This document shows positions 28,531 through 33,880 of a stretch of DNA of 64,000 nt, piece by piece; the stretch's first letter is position 1, and each line of letters starts with the position of its first letter. Below the pieces are notes generated by a model, which was not told the DNA's origin, did no database searches, and saw only the letters and a list, made by a program, of their open reading frames with translations. Origin of the DNA: Acaryochloris sp. CCMEE 5410. Lineage in GTDB: Bacteria > Cyanobacteriota > Cyanobacteriia > Thermosynechococcales > Thermosynechococcaceae. The position numbers were made by a program, and so were the translations under genes. The stretch lies in the NCBI RefSeq assembly GCF_000238775.2, contig NZ_AFEJ02000002.1:620001-684000 (forward strand), given 5' to 3'.

Positions 28531-28980
28531 TCAAGGGTTAGTTGAGGGGGACAGAACTGCAGACCACAAGGCGAAAACGAGGATGCCAACTTTGTAGGTG
28601 AGAAATCCTAAAAAAACAGGTAGGACGTCTAACTGATTCCACTGAGTTGCCACAACAATCAGTAAGACGAAAACACCGAGCTGGCCTTTACCGACCTGGG
28701 TATTCCCGCTTCCTAATTGCTCAACATTCTTCGCCAAAATCCTGAGATATAACACTCCAACGGATGCCCCAAGCAAATAGCTGCTGGCAACCTTTAGAGA
28801 GTACATCCACCACACAGGGCCAAAAAATAACCCTGCTATAACTGAAGATGAAATTATCAAGCCATTTTTGAGTTGATAAAAGTCATCCATCGAATCTCCT
28901 GCTTGAGAAGTCTCTACTTCAGCTAGCTCACTCTCGCTGGAGATGGGGCCGGTCTGAAGGGGAGGATCTGTCAATTCCAC
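28531..28980 (-). CDS. atpI: ATP synthase subunit I (atp1)
   Basis: 149 residues. An acidic N-terminal region is followed by four predicted membrane helices (GLIISSSVIAGLFFGPVWWM; YLLGASVGVLYLRILAK; LGVFVLLIVVATQWNQL; FLGFLTYKVGILVFALW). It is the first gene of the operon, the usual place of the Atp1/I protein that assists c-ring assembly. Sequence conservation in the family is low, so the call rests on position and topology. Confidence 0.85.
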   Translation of the reverse strand: MELTDPPLQTGPISSESELAEVETSQAGDSMDDFYQLKNGLIISSSVIAGLFFGPVWWMYSLKVASSYLLGASVGVLYLRILAKNVEQLGSGNTQVGKGQLGVFVLLIVVATQWNQLDVLPVFLGFLTYKVGILVFALWSAVLSPSTNP

Positions 28981-29053
28981 AGGTTAGAAATTTGGTTTGG
29001 ATGCGTTACTGCAGGCCAAGGCCAATGATATCACGACTGGGTAACATTACTTA

Positions 29054-30070
29054 ATGAATAACCTCGAGAATCTAAAATTTAACCCAAAGATATTCTGGTC
29101 ATTTTTATTTCTATGCGTAGGGGGATGTTCGGTGGCTGAAAAACCTGGTATTTCGTCTTCCCAGCCACAACCCTCGCCATTGCCGATCCAGACCTCTGAA
29201 CAGATTGACAAGCCACTACAACAGATCATCCCTGTCTCTACTGAAGAGGGCTTAAGGTCGGTGCAGTCCTCTCAATCAAAGGCTTCTAGGGTTGGTGTAG
29301 TGATGAATGCGATCGCAGGTTGGAATCGGAATTTGCAGGTCAAAGACGTTTATTACGATTTGTATCTACCGCCACAATTACAAGAAAACCCCAATCCTCA
29401 GCGTCCCTGTTTAGTGGTTTTACCGGGCTGGGACTTTCCCCGAACCAGCTGGGTCGAAAACACCAACTTAGTCAGCTTTGCCGATCGCTACGGCTATGTC
29501 TTGTTGCTGCCAGAGATGGACAAAACCCTCTATGCCAGCGCCTACTATCCTGAAACCACCCTCAAGTGGAACAGCATCCCAGGGGGAGCATTCATCAAGG
29601 AAGCGTTTATCCCCGCCGTCCAGAAACGTCATCAGCTACTCCTGCCGGGCCAGCACAACACCCTGCTGGGTCTGTCTACTGGAGGCAGAGGAGTGGCTTT
29701 GGTAGCCCTCGAAAATCCAAGCTTATTTGTTGCGGGAGCTAGCTTGTCAGGAGACTTTAGCCAAGAGAATACGCCTGAGGATCGGCTAATGACCGCCTTG
29801 TATGGTCCTTTTGCGCAATTCCAATCCCGTTGGCTGGGGCGAGATAACCCTCAAGCTAGAGCATCAGAATGGACCATGCCGCTTTATCTATCCCACGGCA
29901 CGGCAGATGACATTGTGCCAGAGTCGCAGAGTCGCTTGTTTTTTGAAGCCTTAAAACAGCAGCCGTCGGCAGTTGTGGAGTATCATCCAGTGGCTGGTGC
30001 TGGCCATGATTATCCCTATTGGGGAAGCCAATTAGAGGCCGTCTTTAAGTTTATTGACCAGCCCCGATAG
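29054..30070 (+). CDS. Esterase-like alpha/beta-hydrolase lipoprotein
   Basis: 338 residues. A hydrophobic N-terminus ends in a lipobox (FLCVGGC), predicting lipid anchoring. The catalytic part has the nucleophile elbow GLSTGGRG, an acid region near SHGTADDIVPESQ (Asp), and GAGHDYPYWG with the catalytic His. This is the feruloyl/PHB-depolymerase-like esterase group. The substrate is unknown. Divergent from the ATP synthase operon, with 73 bases between the start codons. Confidence 0.75.
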   Translation: MNNLENLKFNPKIFWSFLFLCVGGCSVAEKPGISSSQPQPSPLPIQTSEQIDKPLQQIIPVSTEEGLRSVQSSQSKASRVGVVMNAIAGWNRNLQVKDVYYDLYLPPQLQENPNPQRPCLVVLPGWDFPRTSWVENTNLVSFADRYGYVLLLPEMDKTLYASAYYPETTLKWNSIPGGAFIKEAFIPAVQKRHQLLLPGQHNTLLGLSTGGRGVALVALENPSLFVAGASLSGDFSQENTPEDRLMTALYGPFAQFQSRWLGRDNPQARASEWTMPLYLSHGTADDIVPESQSRLFFEALKQQPSAVVEYHPVAGAGHDYPYWGSQLEAVFKFIDQPR

Positions 30071-30100
30071 TCTGGCTGTTTCTAAGTTCCTGTTGAACCC

Positions 30101-31438
30101 ATGCGCATTGTTGCCTATCTCTACCAGGACTTAACGTGGGAAACGCAATTGGATTCCACCATTTGGGGCTGGGAAGTCGATCGGGTCTATCAGGATTTGG
30201 ATTGGCGACGATCTCAACTGGCGGCGATGTTGGCGGATTTTCAGGCCGAGACACCTGATTATTTGTTGGTGATGCGGCTGGAAGATTTGGGGGAATCTCT
30301 GAGCCAGGTTACGGAGAATCTAGTGCAGTTGGAAGGACTGGGGATTTGCCTGATTGCAATTGAACAGGATTACCAATCTCCGAATTTCAAACTAGGCCAG
30401 GCCAAAATTGAGCAGAATGGTGCAGAAAGCACAGATTCATCCCAGCTATTAGTCTTACTGGATGCCATTCAAGCGGAGCAGCGCAGTCGGCGCATTCGCC
30501 ACGGTCATGCCCAGAATCGGATCAAACGACGTCCCCCGCCGGGGAAAGCCCCCTATGGCTATAAGCGGGGCAAGGACCGATACGTGATCGATCGCACTGT
30601 TTCTCCAGTCGTTAAGGACTTCTTTGAACATTTTTTGCTGTACGGATCGTTGCGTGGATCAGTGCGACATATTGCCAAGAAGCACGGCAAGAAAATATCG
30701 GTTTCAACGGGGCGACGATGGCTAACTAACCCTGTATATCGAGGCGATTTAACCTACCAAAACCAGCAGGTGGTCATGGATACCCATACACCACTACTTT
30801 CCCGAGAAGAAGGAGCCCAGGTGGATCGGCTCTTGCGCCGAAATCGAAGTATGACGCCTAGGGCTGCGAGTGCACCTCGGTCTCTGTCTGGCATTGTATT
30901 TTGTGCTACTTGCCAATCGCCCATGACGATTTCGCGAGTGATGCCCCGAGGGAAGGGTAAGGAATATCTCTATCTTCGCCCCACCAAATGCCCTGATAAA
31001 CCCAGATGCCAAGCGATTTCCTACGACAAGATTTTGCAGAAAACGATTCAATCTATTTGTGATCAACTCCCTCAAGCCGTAGCCGGGGTGAACCAACCGA
31101 TTCTGAGTCAGTTTAAGCAAGGGGTAGATGCAGAAATTGCAGCCAAGCAAAAAATTTTGTCTCAATTGCCTGAACTGGTGGAAACCAATGTACTCGACCA
31201 ATCGACGGCTGATTTGCGGGCCTATAATTTGCAAACGGAAATTGCAGAGTTAAAAAGTCGGTTGGCTCAACTCCCTCCGGTTAACTTAAAGGAGATCGCT
31301 CAAACGGTGTCCATTGATCAGTTTTGGATGGATTTATCAGAATCTGAACGACGCTTTTATTTTCGAGAATTTATTCGCCAGGTGGATCTAATTAGGGATG
31401 GCAAAGACTGTGCGGTCAAACTGAATTTTATGTTCTGA
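30101..31438 (+). CDS. Large serine recombinase-family protein, catalytic serine apparently missing
   Basis: 445 residues, resembling the XisF-like recombinases of cyanobacteria. Domains: a resolvase-type N-terminal domain (about 1-140), a recombinase domain (RPPPGKAPYGYKRGKDRYV ... RWLTNPVYRGDLTYQ), a zinc beta-ribbon (FCATCQSP ... KCPDKPRC), and a C-terminal coiled coil. The N-terminus reads MRIVAYLYQDLTWE where catalytic enzymes have Y-x-R-V-S; no serine fits, and of the DRLxR arginines only one (VMRLEDLGES) remains. DNA binding may persist without cleavage. It follows the esterase gene by 30 bases on the same strand. No associated element is visible at its ends. Confidence 0.7.
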   Translation: MRIVAYLYQDLTWETQLDSTIWGWEVDRVYQDLDWRRSQLAAMLADFQAETPDYLLVMRLEDLGESLSQVTENLVQLEGLGICLIAIEQDYQSPNFKLGQAKIEQNGAESTDSSQLLVLLDAIQAEQRSRRIRHGHAQNRIKRRPPPGKAPYGYKRGKDRYVIDRTVSPVVKDFFEHFLLYGSLRGSVRHIAKKHGKKISVSTGRRWLTNPVYRGDLTYQNQQVVMDTHTPLLSREEGAQVDRLLRRNRSMTPRAASAPRSLSGIVFCATCQSPMTISRVMPRGKGKEYLYLRPTKCPDKPRCQAISYDKILQKTIQSICDQLPQAVAGVNQPILSQFKQGVDAEIAAKQKILSQLPELVETNVLDQSTADLRAYNLQTEIAELKSRLAQLPPVNLKEIAQTVSIDQFWMDLSESERRFYFREFIRQVDLIRDGKDCAVKLNFMF

Positions 31439-31624
31439 TAGATGAACGAGAATTTATCAATTTATAGTCTTTTTTAAACGCCATCAAACTACCAAAGAAA
31501 AAACATTCGCGTTTTTGGTATGAGTGCAAGAATTATTTCTATTCTTTTATAAATAATTCGTCATTCTATTCGCTAGATTTGGGCAATCTAGATCAGTGAA
31601 GGTAATGAATTAGGCTTCTAAAAG

Positions 31625-33880
31625 ATGGATTTGTCTCAGGCAATTGGAAATCTCTTTGATCAGGAAGAGGGAGCTAAATCAGAAGATTCAAAACTTTCAG
31701 ACTTGCTAAGCCGCATCGCCCAGCTTTTACCAGACACTTCATCTTCTAATCCTGATGGTGACCAAGACGCAGAAGTCCTCTACAGACAACTGACTGATGC
31801 CGCCCGTTCAGGCCAGAATGACTTGTTTTTGGAATTAGTGAAAGCTGAAAAAACGCAACCACCTTCTAATGAACCTACTTTACTGATGGCAGCCGTCTTG
31901 GCTCATCAGCATGAAGTTGTGAAAGCATTGATGGCCGCAGGAGCTGATGTTAATGCCAAGGTCAAAAAGTTCTTTGAATTTAATGCCTTGGATCTGGCTG
32001 TTGGCGAAGAAAATATTGCCATTACCCAAACGCTTCTAGAGGCTGGTGCTGACCCCAACTGGATCAATACCAGTCCAGGGCTTGCTCCAATCACTAAAGC
32101 GATCCAGAAAAACAATACTGAACTGGTACGCTTGCTCTTGAAACATAATGCCAGTGTGGTGTTTGAGACAAAGGCAAAACCTCTGGTGGAAGCGGCTCAA
32201 AACGATAATCCAGAGATCATCAATCTGTTAATCGAAGCTGGTTGCAGCATTAACGACAAGAACTATAATAGCCAATCAGCACTACAGATCGCTTGCCTAA
32301 ACTGCAACGTTGAAACCATTAAAACTTTGCTTGCTGCTGGCGCTCAGCTTAGTGCTTCTGGGGATGAGCTGTTTTCAATTTTTTATGCTAAAGGATATGC
32401 CAGACAACTATCAGGTTTATTAGGCGAGAAACCTGACCCTACACCCAAAATTCCCCTTGCTCTGCAAGCTCTAATCGATGCAGGTGCCGATCTAAATGTG
32501 GTTAGCAATACGGGTACAACGGCATTGGCAACAGCTATTCAGCATGGATATTTAGAGGCCGTTAAGTTGCTGTTGGCAAAAGGGGCAGATCCAAACTTGT
32601 CCTGTCAGTCCATCGATTCATGGATGTTACAGAACCCCGAACTGCAGGATCATTATCGTGAACGTTTTGATAAAACGATGCCCCTGAATTTGGCGGCTGC
32701 TTTTGGCCGATTTGAAATGGTTCAAACCTTACTTGATGCGGGTGCAGATCCAGGATGTATAGATGAAAAAGGACGAACCGCTCTAAAGATTGCCATTAAG
32801 GAGGGGCATCAAGACATTGTTACGCTTCTCAAGAAGACAGGTGCCCCTGATACCCCTGAGGTTATGGAGCATCCTTCGGATACTTTGCTGGGTGCCGCTA
32901 AAAAGGGACATCTAGAGTTACTCTCATCTGCATTAGCTGCAGGGGCTGATCCGAACGCAAGCCAAGTTTCAGCCGGGCGTCAACGACGGGAAAAGACAGC
33001 CCTGATGTTTGCTGCAGAAAGGGGGCATTTAGATGTCGTCAAACGGCTGCTAGAAGCTGGTGCTGAGGTGGACTTGAGCGATCGCCCTGGCAAGAAATTT
33101 GGCAAAACTCCCCTGATGTATGCAGCTCAAAGTGATCAGGCTGATATTCTCAAGTATTTTCTGGAAGCAGGAGCAGTGATAGATGCTCAAGATAAGCGAG
33201 GCCAAACGGCTCTGTTTTATGCGGTGGAGGCTAAAGCAGCAGCGGCGGTAGAAGTCTTACTCACCTATGGGGCCGATCCCCATAAACAAAGCTGGGATGG
33301 TACTCCGTTTGAGCAAGCGAGCTACAGCAATTCACAAATCACCAAATTGATTACGACTGCCGACCATCAGCGAAGCAGCGAGATGAGTGCAGAGGCTCGG
33401 GTGGAAATGCTTAGTTCAGCTGCATTCGACGGTAATGCAGACCTAGTAAGGGATTTGATCCACCAAGGAGTGGATATTAATGCAACGGACAAGGATAGCG
33501 GTTGGACGGCCCTGATGTCTGGGGCGGCCCAAGGGCACATCACAGTTGTGCAATTGCTACTTGCTGCAGGAGCTGAGGTCAATCGAGACCTTCCTTCTGG
33601 GAAAACGGCTTTATCCGAAGCTGCTTACTGGGGCCGCACCGAGATTGTCAAACTGCTAATTTCAGCAGGCGCTAATCTTAACTCGGCAGATTCAGACGGC
33701 TGGACACCCGTTATGAAAACCCTGGTTTGGAACGCCACTGAAGTGTTGCAGGTTTTACTAGATGCTGGCGCAGATGCTTCGGTGCGAAATGAGGATGGGA
33801 AAATGGTCCTGGCGATAGCAATTGCGGATGGAAAAACTGAGATCGCAAATATCCTTCGCCAAGCTGGAGTGACCGAATAA
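31625..33880 (+). CDS. Ankyrin-repeat protein
   Basis: 751 residues containing about 17 ankyrin repeats from residue 90 to the end (for example KTALMFAAERGHLDVVKRLL and WTALMSGAAQGHITVVQLLL), two of them degenerate around residues 260-290 and 570-600. The first 80 residues are a non-repeat acidic helical region. No signal peptide, so probably cytoplasmic. Ankyrin arrays bind partner proteins. Convergent with the unknown gene downstream, only 5 bases apart. Confidence 0.9.
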   Translation: MDLSQAIGNLFDQEEGAKSEDSKLSDLLSRIAQLLPDTSSSNPDGDQDAEVLYRQLTDAARSGQNDLFLELVKAEKTQPPSNEPTLLMAAVLAHQHEVVKALMAAGADVNAKVKKFFEFNALDLAVGEENIAITQTLLEAGADPNWINTSPGLAPITKAIQKNNTELVRLLLKHNASVVFETKAKPLVEAAQNDNPEIINLLIEAGCSINDKNYNSQSALQIACLNCNVETIKTLLAAGAQLSASGDELFSIFYAKGYARQLSGLLGEKPDPTPKIPLALQALIDAGADLNVVSNTGTTALATAIQHGYLEAVKLLLAKGADPNLSCQSIDSWMLQNPELQDHYRERFDKTMPLNLAAAFGRFEMVQTLLDAGADPGCIDEKGRTALKIAIKEGHQDIVTLLKKTGAPDTPEVMEHPSDTLLGAAKKGHLELLSSALAAGADPNASQVSAGRQRREKTALMFAAERGHLDVVKRLLEAGAEVDLSDRPGKKFGKTPLMYAAQSDQADILKYFLEAGAVIDAQDKRGQTALFYAVEAKAAAAVEVLLTYGADPHKQSWDGTPFEQASYSNSQITKLITTADHQRSSEMSAEARVEMLSSAAFDGNADLVRDLIHQGVDINATDKDSGWTALMSGAAQGHITVVQLLLAAGAEVNRDLPSGKTALSEAAYWGRTEIVKLLISAGANLNSADSDGWTPVMKTLVWNATEVLQVLLDAGADASVRNEDGKMVLAIAIADGKTEIANILRQAGVTE

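Follow-up and report, generated by a model that had tools for sequence, protein, structure and literature searches.

A conserved cyanobacterial relative of the large serine recombinases, devoid of catalytic residues and probably retained as a DNA-binding protein

Introduction

Serine integrases are known as enzymes that cut and join DNA. What, then, should we make of a gene that has the build of a large serine recombinase (LSR) and lacks the residues with which such enzymes cut? The question is raised by a locus of Acaryochloris sp. CCMEE 5410, lying in a stretch of 64,000 nucleotides that was analysed as a whole and is termed here the window (contig NZ_AFEJ02000002.1, positions 620,001 to 684,000 of the forward strand). 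An earlier note, made from the letters of the sequence, had recognized a serine recombinase relative without its catalytic serine at 30101-30420, a segment that does lie within the open reading frame, while making up only the N-terminal quarter of the gene, which extends over 30101-31438 (Table 1).

Domain organization and predicted structure

The window protein is matched, in this order, by the Pfam profiles PF00239 (Resolvase, weakly), PF07508 (Recombinase) and PF13408 (Zn_ribbon_recom), all above cut-off, and the same ordered series was found in all 35 members compared (E <= 0.01), which places the family in the LSR superfamily. The recombinase and zinc-ribbon parts have thus persisted, as had been proposed, since PF07508 and PF13408 are both matched; the four cysteines expected to bind zinc are invariant in the 35 orthologues. 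The match to PF00239 skips the first 31 positions of the model, where the serine is located. A search with PADLOC returned no match.

An AlphaFold model of the monomer, built from 35 sequences and of moderate confidence (mean pLDDT 77, pTM 0.54), has a predicted fold that belongs with the LSR superfamily. The top Foldseek and VIA-align matches are LSR structures, whether residues 1-445 or 132-445 are submitted; the best VIA-align match is with the A118 integrase (4kis_B, Z 16.8 over 289 residues, rmsd 6.1), followed by Bxb1, phiC31 and other serine integrases, and the N-terminal domain aligns with the catalytic domains of gamma-delta resolvase and Sin with a Z of about 10-11.

Table 1. Features of the locus, in window coordinates
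Feature	Position	Strand	Evidence
Entire gene, coding for a catalytically dead LSR of 445 aa	30101..31438	+	ORF, Pfam, orthologues
Catalytically dead N-terminal domain of the resolvase type (residues 1-144), with helix 112-143 at the place of the dimer helix	30101..30532	+	PF00239 match 24-139, AlphaFold secondary structure, VIA-align
Residues 8-10 (YQD) at the R-V-S position of active enzymes; Arg8 replaced by Tyr, no Ser	30122..30130	+	
Residues 61-65 (EDLGE) at the D-R-L-x-R position of active enzymes; both Arg replaced by acidic residues	30281..30295	+	
Linker (PPPG) and DNA-binding recombinase domain, together residues 145-255; conservation within the protein is highest here	30533..30865	+	PF07508 167-248
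Zinc-ribbon DNA-binding domain, residues 256-334, Cys268/Cys271/Cys297/Cys303	30866..31102	+	PF13408 262-314
Pair of long helices (residues 335-361, 367-390) where LSRs have their coiled-coil arm	31103..31276	+	AlphaFold; structural alignment to A118, Bxb1 integrases
Conserved C-terminal tail, FWxDLSExERRFYFREFIRQ...	31277..31435	+	
Upstream neighbour on the same strand, outside the feature: putative esterase, at a distance of 30 nt	29054..30070	+	PF00756

Loss of the catalytic residues

The N-terminus of the protein, MRIVAYLYQDLTWE, indeed holds no serine among its first 18 residues. One could have imagined that an alternative upstream start restored a proper Y-x-R-V-S motif; this is ruled out by an in-frame stop situated six codons 5' of the ATG, so that no other start can supply it. 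Another way out would have been that close orthologues still had the serine, the present copy being merely broken: they lack it as well, and the loss is therefore a trait of the family. This was established on a set of 205 loci scoring above 300 bits, which correspond to 193 distinct proteins; a further 13 matches, below 85 bits, are XisF-like or other recombinases, and seven of the XisF-like ones were aligned as a control, the other six being left out.

With active-site numbering that we take to follow gamma-delta resolvase, Y-x-R-x-S occurs in none of the 193 orthologues, and a serine is found four residues past Tyr6 in only one of them; three residues past Tyr6, a serine or threonine is present in 151/193, the window protein having a glutamine there. 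The column of Arg8 has a tyrosine in 184/193 and never an arginine. The earlier note had also considered the arginine pair of the DRLxR motif to be reduced. The pair has certainly changed, yet replacement is the proper word, both arginines having given way to acidic residues (LEDLGES in the window protein): at Arg68 we find Glu in 163 and Asp in 24 proteins (E/D in 187/193, Arg in a single one), and at Arg71 Asp in 149 and Glu in 26 (D/E in 175/193, Arg in none). One orthologue (L173) does contain a literal DRLxR, but by chance and farther downstream than the site (GDRLQR). Asp36 is kept in 192/193 orthologues and Arg45 in 189/193. In the seven XisF-like controls, from the same genome collection, the serine, Arg8 and Arg68 are present in all and Arg71 in six. 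Both marks of an active LSR, the serine of Y-x-R-x-S and the arginines 8, 68 and 71, are consequently missing from the window protein, which has Tyr, Asp and Glu in place of the latter.

Selection and inverted conservation

Purifying selection on the gene is strong. Within Acaryochloris, dN/dS is 0.03-0.055 for the whole gene (five sequences, ten pairs, with dS saturated in several) and 0.00-0.05 for the recombinase domain, in those pairs where it could be computed. Were the gene a decayed recombinase devoid of function, an idea suggested by the loss of the catalytic residues and by the stop-codon remnants seen in a few genomes, neither these ratios nor the open frames sharing the same substitutions throughout the phylum would be expected; dN/dS and conservation together refute it for the window copy, and as a general account it may practically be dismissed.

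Where selection acts is of particular significance. In 3975 out of 4000 orthologue pairs, conservation is higher in the half of the protein that follows residue 144, and that would bind DNA, than in the catalytic half, while among the active XisF-like proteins the catalytic half is the more conserved in 20 of 21 pairs and the DNA-binding half in one, a small control drawn from seven proteins. The mean sum of squared frequencies tells the same story, with 0.75 and 0.73 for the linker and the recombinase domain against 0.51 for the catalytic domain, and the recombinase domain is almost invariant across the phylum. Because of this inverted conservation and of the low dN/dS, the suggestion that the gene codes for a DNA-binding protein rather than a recombinase is well supported. 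Selection acts on the N-terminal domain too, however, which is hence not merely passive. One genome (G069, locus L235) has lost the catalytic domain and retains an open frame of 347 codons, beginning at about model position 119, that is, the DNA-binding half alone; given other changes there, this copy may be decaying.

The replacements at the active site could have created a new one, of the metal-dependent nuclease or topoisomerase-like kind, in which an acidic cluster (E/D at the sites of Arg68 and Arg71, D/N/E at that of the serine) would be combined with the nearly invariant Tyr6 and Tyr8. Tyr8 in 184/193 orthologues and acidic residues at both arginine sites in most of them do speak of conserved replacement and not of random decay. 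Nevertheless, the domain in question is the less conserved half of the protein, and the acidic cluster is degenerate in genus g188, so that we regard a new catalytic site as highly improbable.

Distribution and descent

In a scan of genome contigs, the best 80 of 125 relatives were all cyanobacterial, with best segments at 53-97% identity. Among the carriers of an orthologue are Nostoc and genus g22 of family f12, whose genomes measure 2.7-2.8 Mb. The class was sampled with 388 genomes, 101 belonging to family f2 and 287 to other families. In the latter the gene is whole in 222, partial in eight, and absent or represented by weak matches only in 57; none of the 101 f2 genomes exceeds a weak match, which two of them display. 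Most cyanobacteria outside f2 have one copy per genome. Family f14, presumably Gloeobacter-like, is without the gene and is low in the repeat HIP1 discussed in the next section. Stop-codon remnants were seen in two genomes of genus g72 that are HIP1-poor (L220 and L221, in G188 and G304), a HIP1-rich member (G184) having the gene whole. Some lineages can do without the gene.

In a tree made with a quick method and rooted at midpoint, the long branches of which were flagged by the tool, 172 orthologue rows form one clade apart from the seven active proteins (SH-aLRT 100; branches of 1.73 and 2.32), and the rows of Nostocaceae, Microcoleaceae and Acaryochloris group together. There is no close relative on plasmids (four matching records out of 72,556, with identities of 22-24%), nor in phages (80 of 50,697 records match, all below 60% identity, the 12 matches listed being at 25% or less), and no relative is encoded in any of 38 candidate viral stretches; from this near-absence it follows that the gene is chromosomal and inherited mostly vertically, with losses. 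The absence of flanking mobile-element ends, remarked upon previously, was borne out, as direct repeats of at least 14 nt are missing from 28900-31700; neither occurrence in phages or plasmids nor att-like repeats identify the gene as the integrase of a mobile element. As far as the comparison of sequences reaches, the family-wide loss of catalytic residues, the selection, the stronger constraint on the DNA-binding half and the chromosomal inheritance are thereby demonstrated.

Genomic neighbourhood and the search for a DNA target

In 95 of the 197 loci with at least 600 nt upstream, the gene is directly preceded, on its own strand, by one of the glyoxalase/VOC family (for example L188:4581-4973; one member was checked with Pfam). 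In seven of 193 loci (L202, L015, L198, L199, L092, L178 and L194) a divergent tRNA-Lys(TTT) gene is found 42-190 nt upstream, and tRNA-Lys accounts for nine of the 15 tRNA genes over all loci; this neighbour may mark the position, or the integration site, of an ancestral element. No tRNA gene was found in the window, and the genome has an identical tRNA-Lys some 725 kb from the gene. Downstream in the window (31625-33880, plus strand) lies the gene of a 751-residue ankyrin-repeat protein, with 15 stretches of PF00023.

Footprinting of 104 non-redundant upstream regions with 8-mers and gapped palindromes revealed no coherent motif beyond the neighbouring tRNA gene, and hence no DNA target. The strongest coherent upstream signal, TCGGTTAAAAGCCGA, was rejected as a target, being part of the tRNA-Lys gene; another block, TAGCACAG, situated between the gene and tRNA-Lys, is a possible promoter of the tRNA.

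Co-distribution suggested that the protein might read HIP1 (GCGATCGC), the highly repeated palindrome of cyanobacteria, and organize the chromosome in this way. This was tested on 386 genomes of the phylum and 388 of the class, as well as on the DNA-binding residues. Presence of the gene was set against HIP1 in the 287 non-f2 genomes, those without a listed match or with weak matches (remnants or paralogues) being counted as absent, the eight partial ones as not absent, and six genomes with 100-200 HIP1/Mb remaining outside the Fisher test. The gene is absent from 15/30 HIP1-poor genomes (<100/Mb) and from 40/251 HIP1-rich ones (>=200/Mb; odds ratio 5.3, p 6e-5), or, counting genera split by HIP1 state, from 8/15 poor and 9/122 rich (p 4e-5). 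Family f2 has neither HIP1 nor the gene, and in genus g72 the gene is gone from the three HIP1-poor genomes and kept in the HIP1-rich one. These statistics, however, ignore phylogeny, and there are counterexamples both ways: genus g34 of family f24 is HIP1-rich, yet the gene is absent or weakly matched in 23/23 genomes, while two HIP1-poor genomes (G535 and G540) have an intact gene scoring like those of HIP1-rich members of their own genus. The near-invariant residues of the recombinase domain are unaffected by loss of HIP1 (zero deviation in L192 and L018, for instance), and upstream regions are not enriched in the repeat (16 seen, 21.2 expected). In Elhai (2015; PMC4390886), HIPs are tied to DNA methyltransferases, a link that we count against HIP1 as a target of the protein, and rCCGGy takes the place of HIP1 in Oscillatoria PCC 10802, which in our data carries an intact orthologue (L018). 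HIP1 as the target is not supported, and we deem it distinctly improbable, DNA-binding residues not following the repeat. As a separate observation, GCGATCGC is present more than 1000 times in some genomes of families f43, f47 and f48, of the same phylum and outside the class, a number that greatly exceeds the reversed control; no genome of these families is among the matches listed for the gene.

Origin and mode of action

An LSR dimer sits on its site with recombinase and zinc-ribbon domains reading the DNA, and coiled-coil arms join two dimers, as in A118, Bxb1 and phiC31. We may take this as a start to understand what the dead family does. Probably, it descends from an ancient, mostly vertically inherited LSR of the XisF type that became a non-cutting DNA-binding dimer, gripping specific sites and maybe joining two of them. 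An XisF-type LSR would have been captured once, by an early cyanobacterium; the residues that cut strands would have been lost along the stem leading to the clade, after which the gene would have been a chromosomal one, passed on mostly vertically. The protein would dimerize through its resolvase-fold domain and long helix, its recombinase and zinc-ribbon domains would grip specific sites, and the retained coiled-coil arm may join two sites as in the first steps of recombination, with no cleavage to follow. Homology and the predicted monomer are what dimerization, sequence-specific binding and bridging rest upon. The binding may serve regulation or the architecture of the nucleoid, as the earlier note had considered, or else keep out incoming elements. 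The arginines that hold the scissile phosphate being now acidic, the usual way of cleaving DNA should be closed to the protein.

That the recombinase domain is nearly invariant suggests that the target is conserved in most of the phylum. More tentatively, we may propose that the capture took place near the cyanobacterial base, once the Gloeobacter-like lineages, which are without the gene, had branched off, and that the recombinase became a chromosome-bridging or site-marking protein reading a site conserved phylum-wide, its acidic active site allowing a synapse and never a cut. The same invariance bears on another proposal, according to which the protein acts on active serine recombinases, by forming mixed dimers with them, competing with them or blocking their sites, for example as an immunity protein against integrating elements. 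The dimer helix and the DNA-binding parts are retained, and some of these genomes also encode XisF-like proteins. A domain that hardly varies across the phylum would nevertheless face active XisF-like proteins that are diverse (mean identity of 30% in the DNA-binding half), and the genome of the window has just three other Resolvase-domain genes, which makes a role as partner unlikely.

Relationship to known systems

If the non-cutting DNA-binding dimer is the right reading, it would illustrate how an integrase can enter the service of its host, and LSRs that are dead by nature could find use as DNA-binding modules. Cyanobacteria would then have an uncharacterized conserved DNA-binding protein, for which the nearest NCBI family model is entitled 'XisF recombinase'. 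The open-licence literature that was searched (including PMC4874684, PMC5101192, PMC3025956 and PMC4390886) contained no description of this family.

Among known systems, staphylococcal CcrA and CcrB are related through weak profile similarity (CcrA in 25/35 members, CcrB in 4/35), but they are the active enzymes of a mobile cassette. The phage serine integrases A118, Bxb1 and phiC31 align structurally with the window protein over recombinase domain, zinc ribbon and coiled-coil region, at about 16% identity, whereas the family described here is catalytically dead, chromosomal and mostly vertical in its inheritance. The closest parallel is with XisF, the recombinase that excises the fdxN element (NCBIfam NF041201): the architecture is common to both and all 35 aligned orthologues match the model, while the window protein, with 129 bits for a cut-off of 375, falls well short of being an equivalent of XisF. 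Unlike XisF, the dead family has neither catalytic serine nor arginines and gives no sign of an excisable element, and it is present also in cyanobacteria that, as is the case of Acaryochloris, have no heterocysts.
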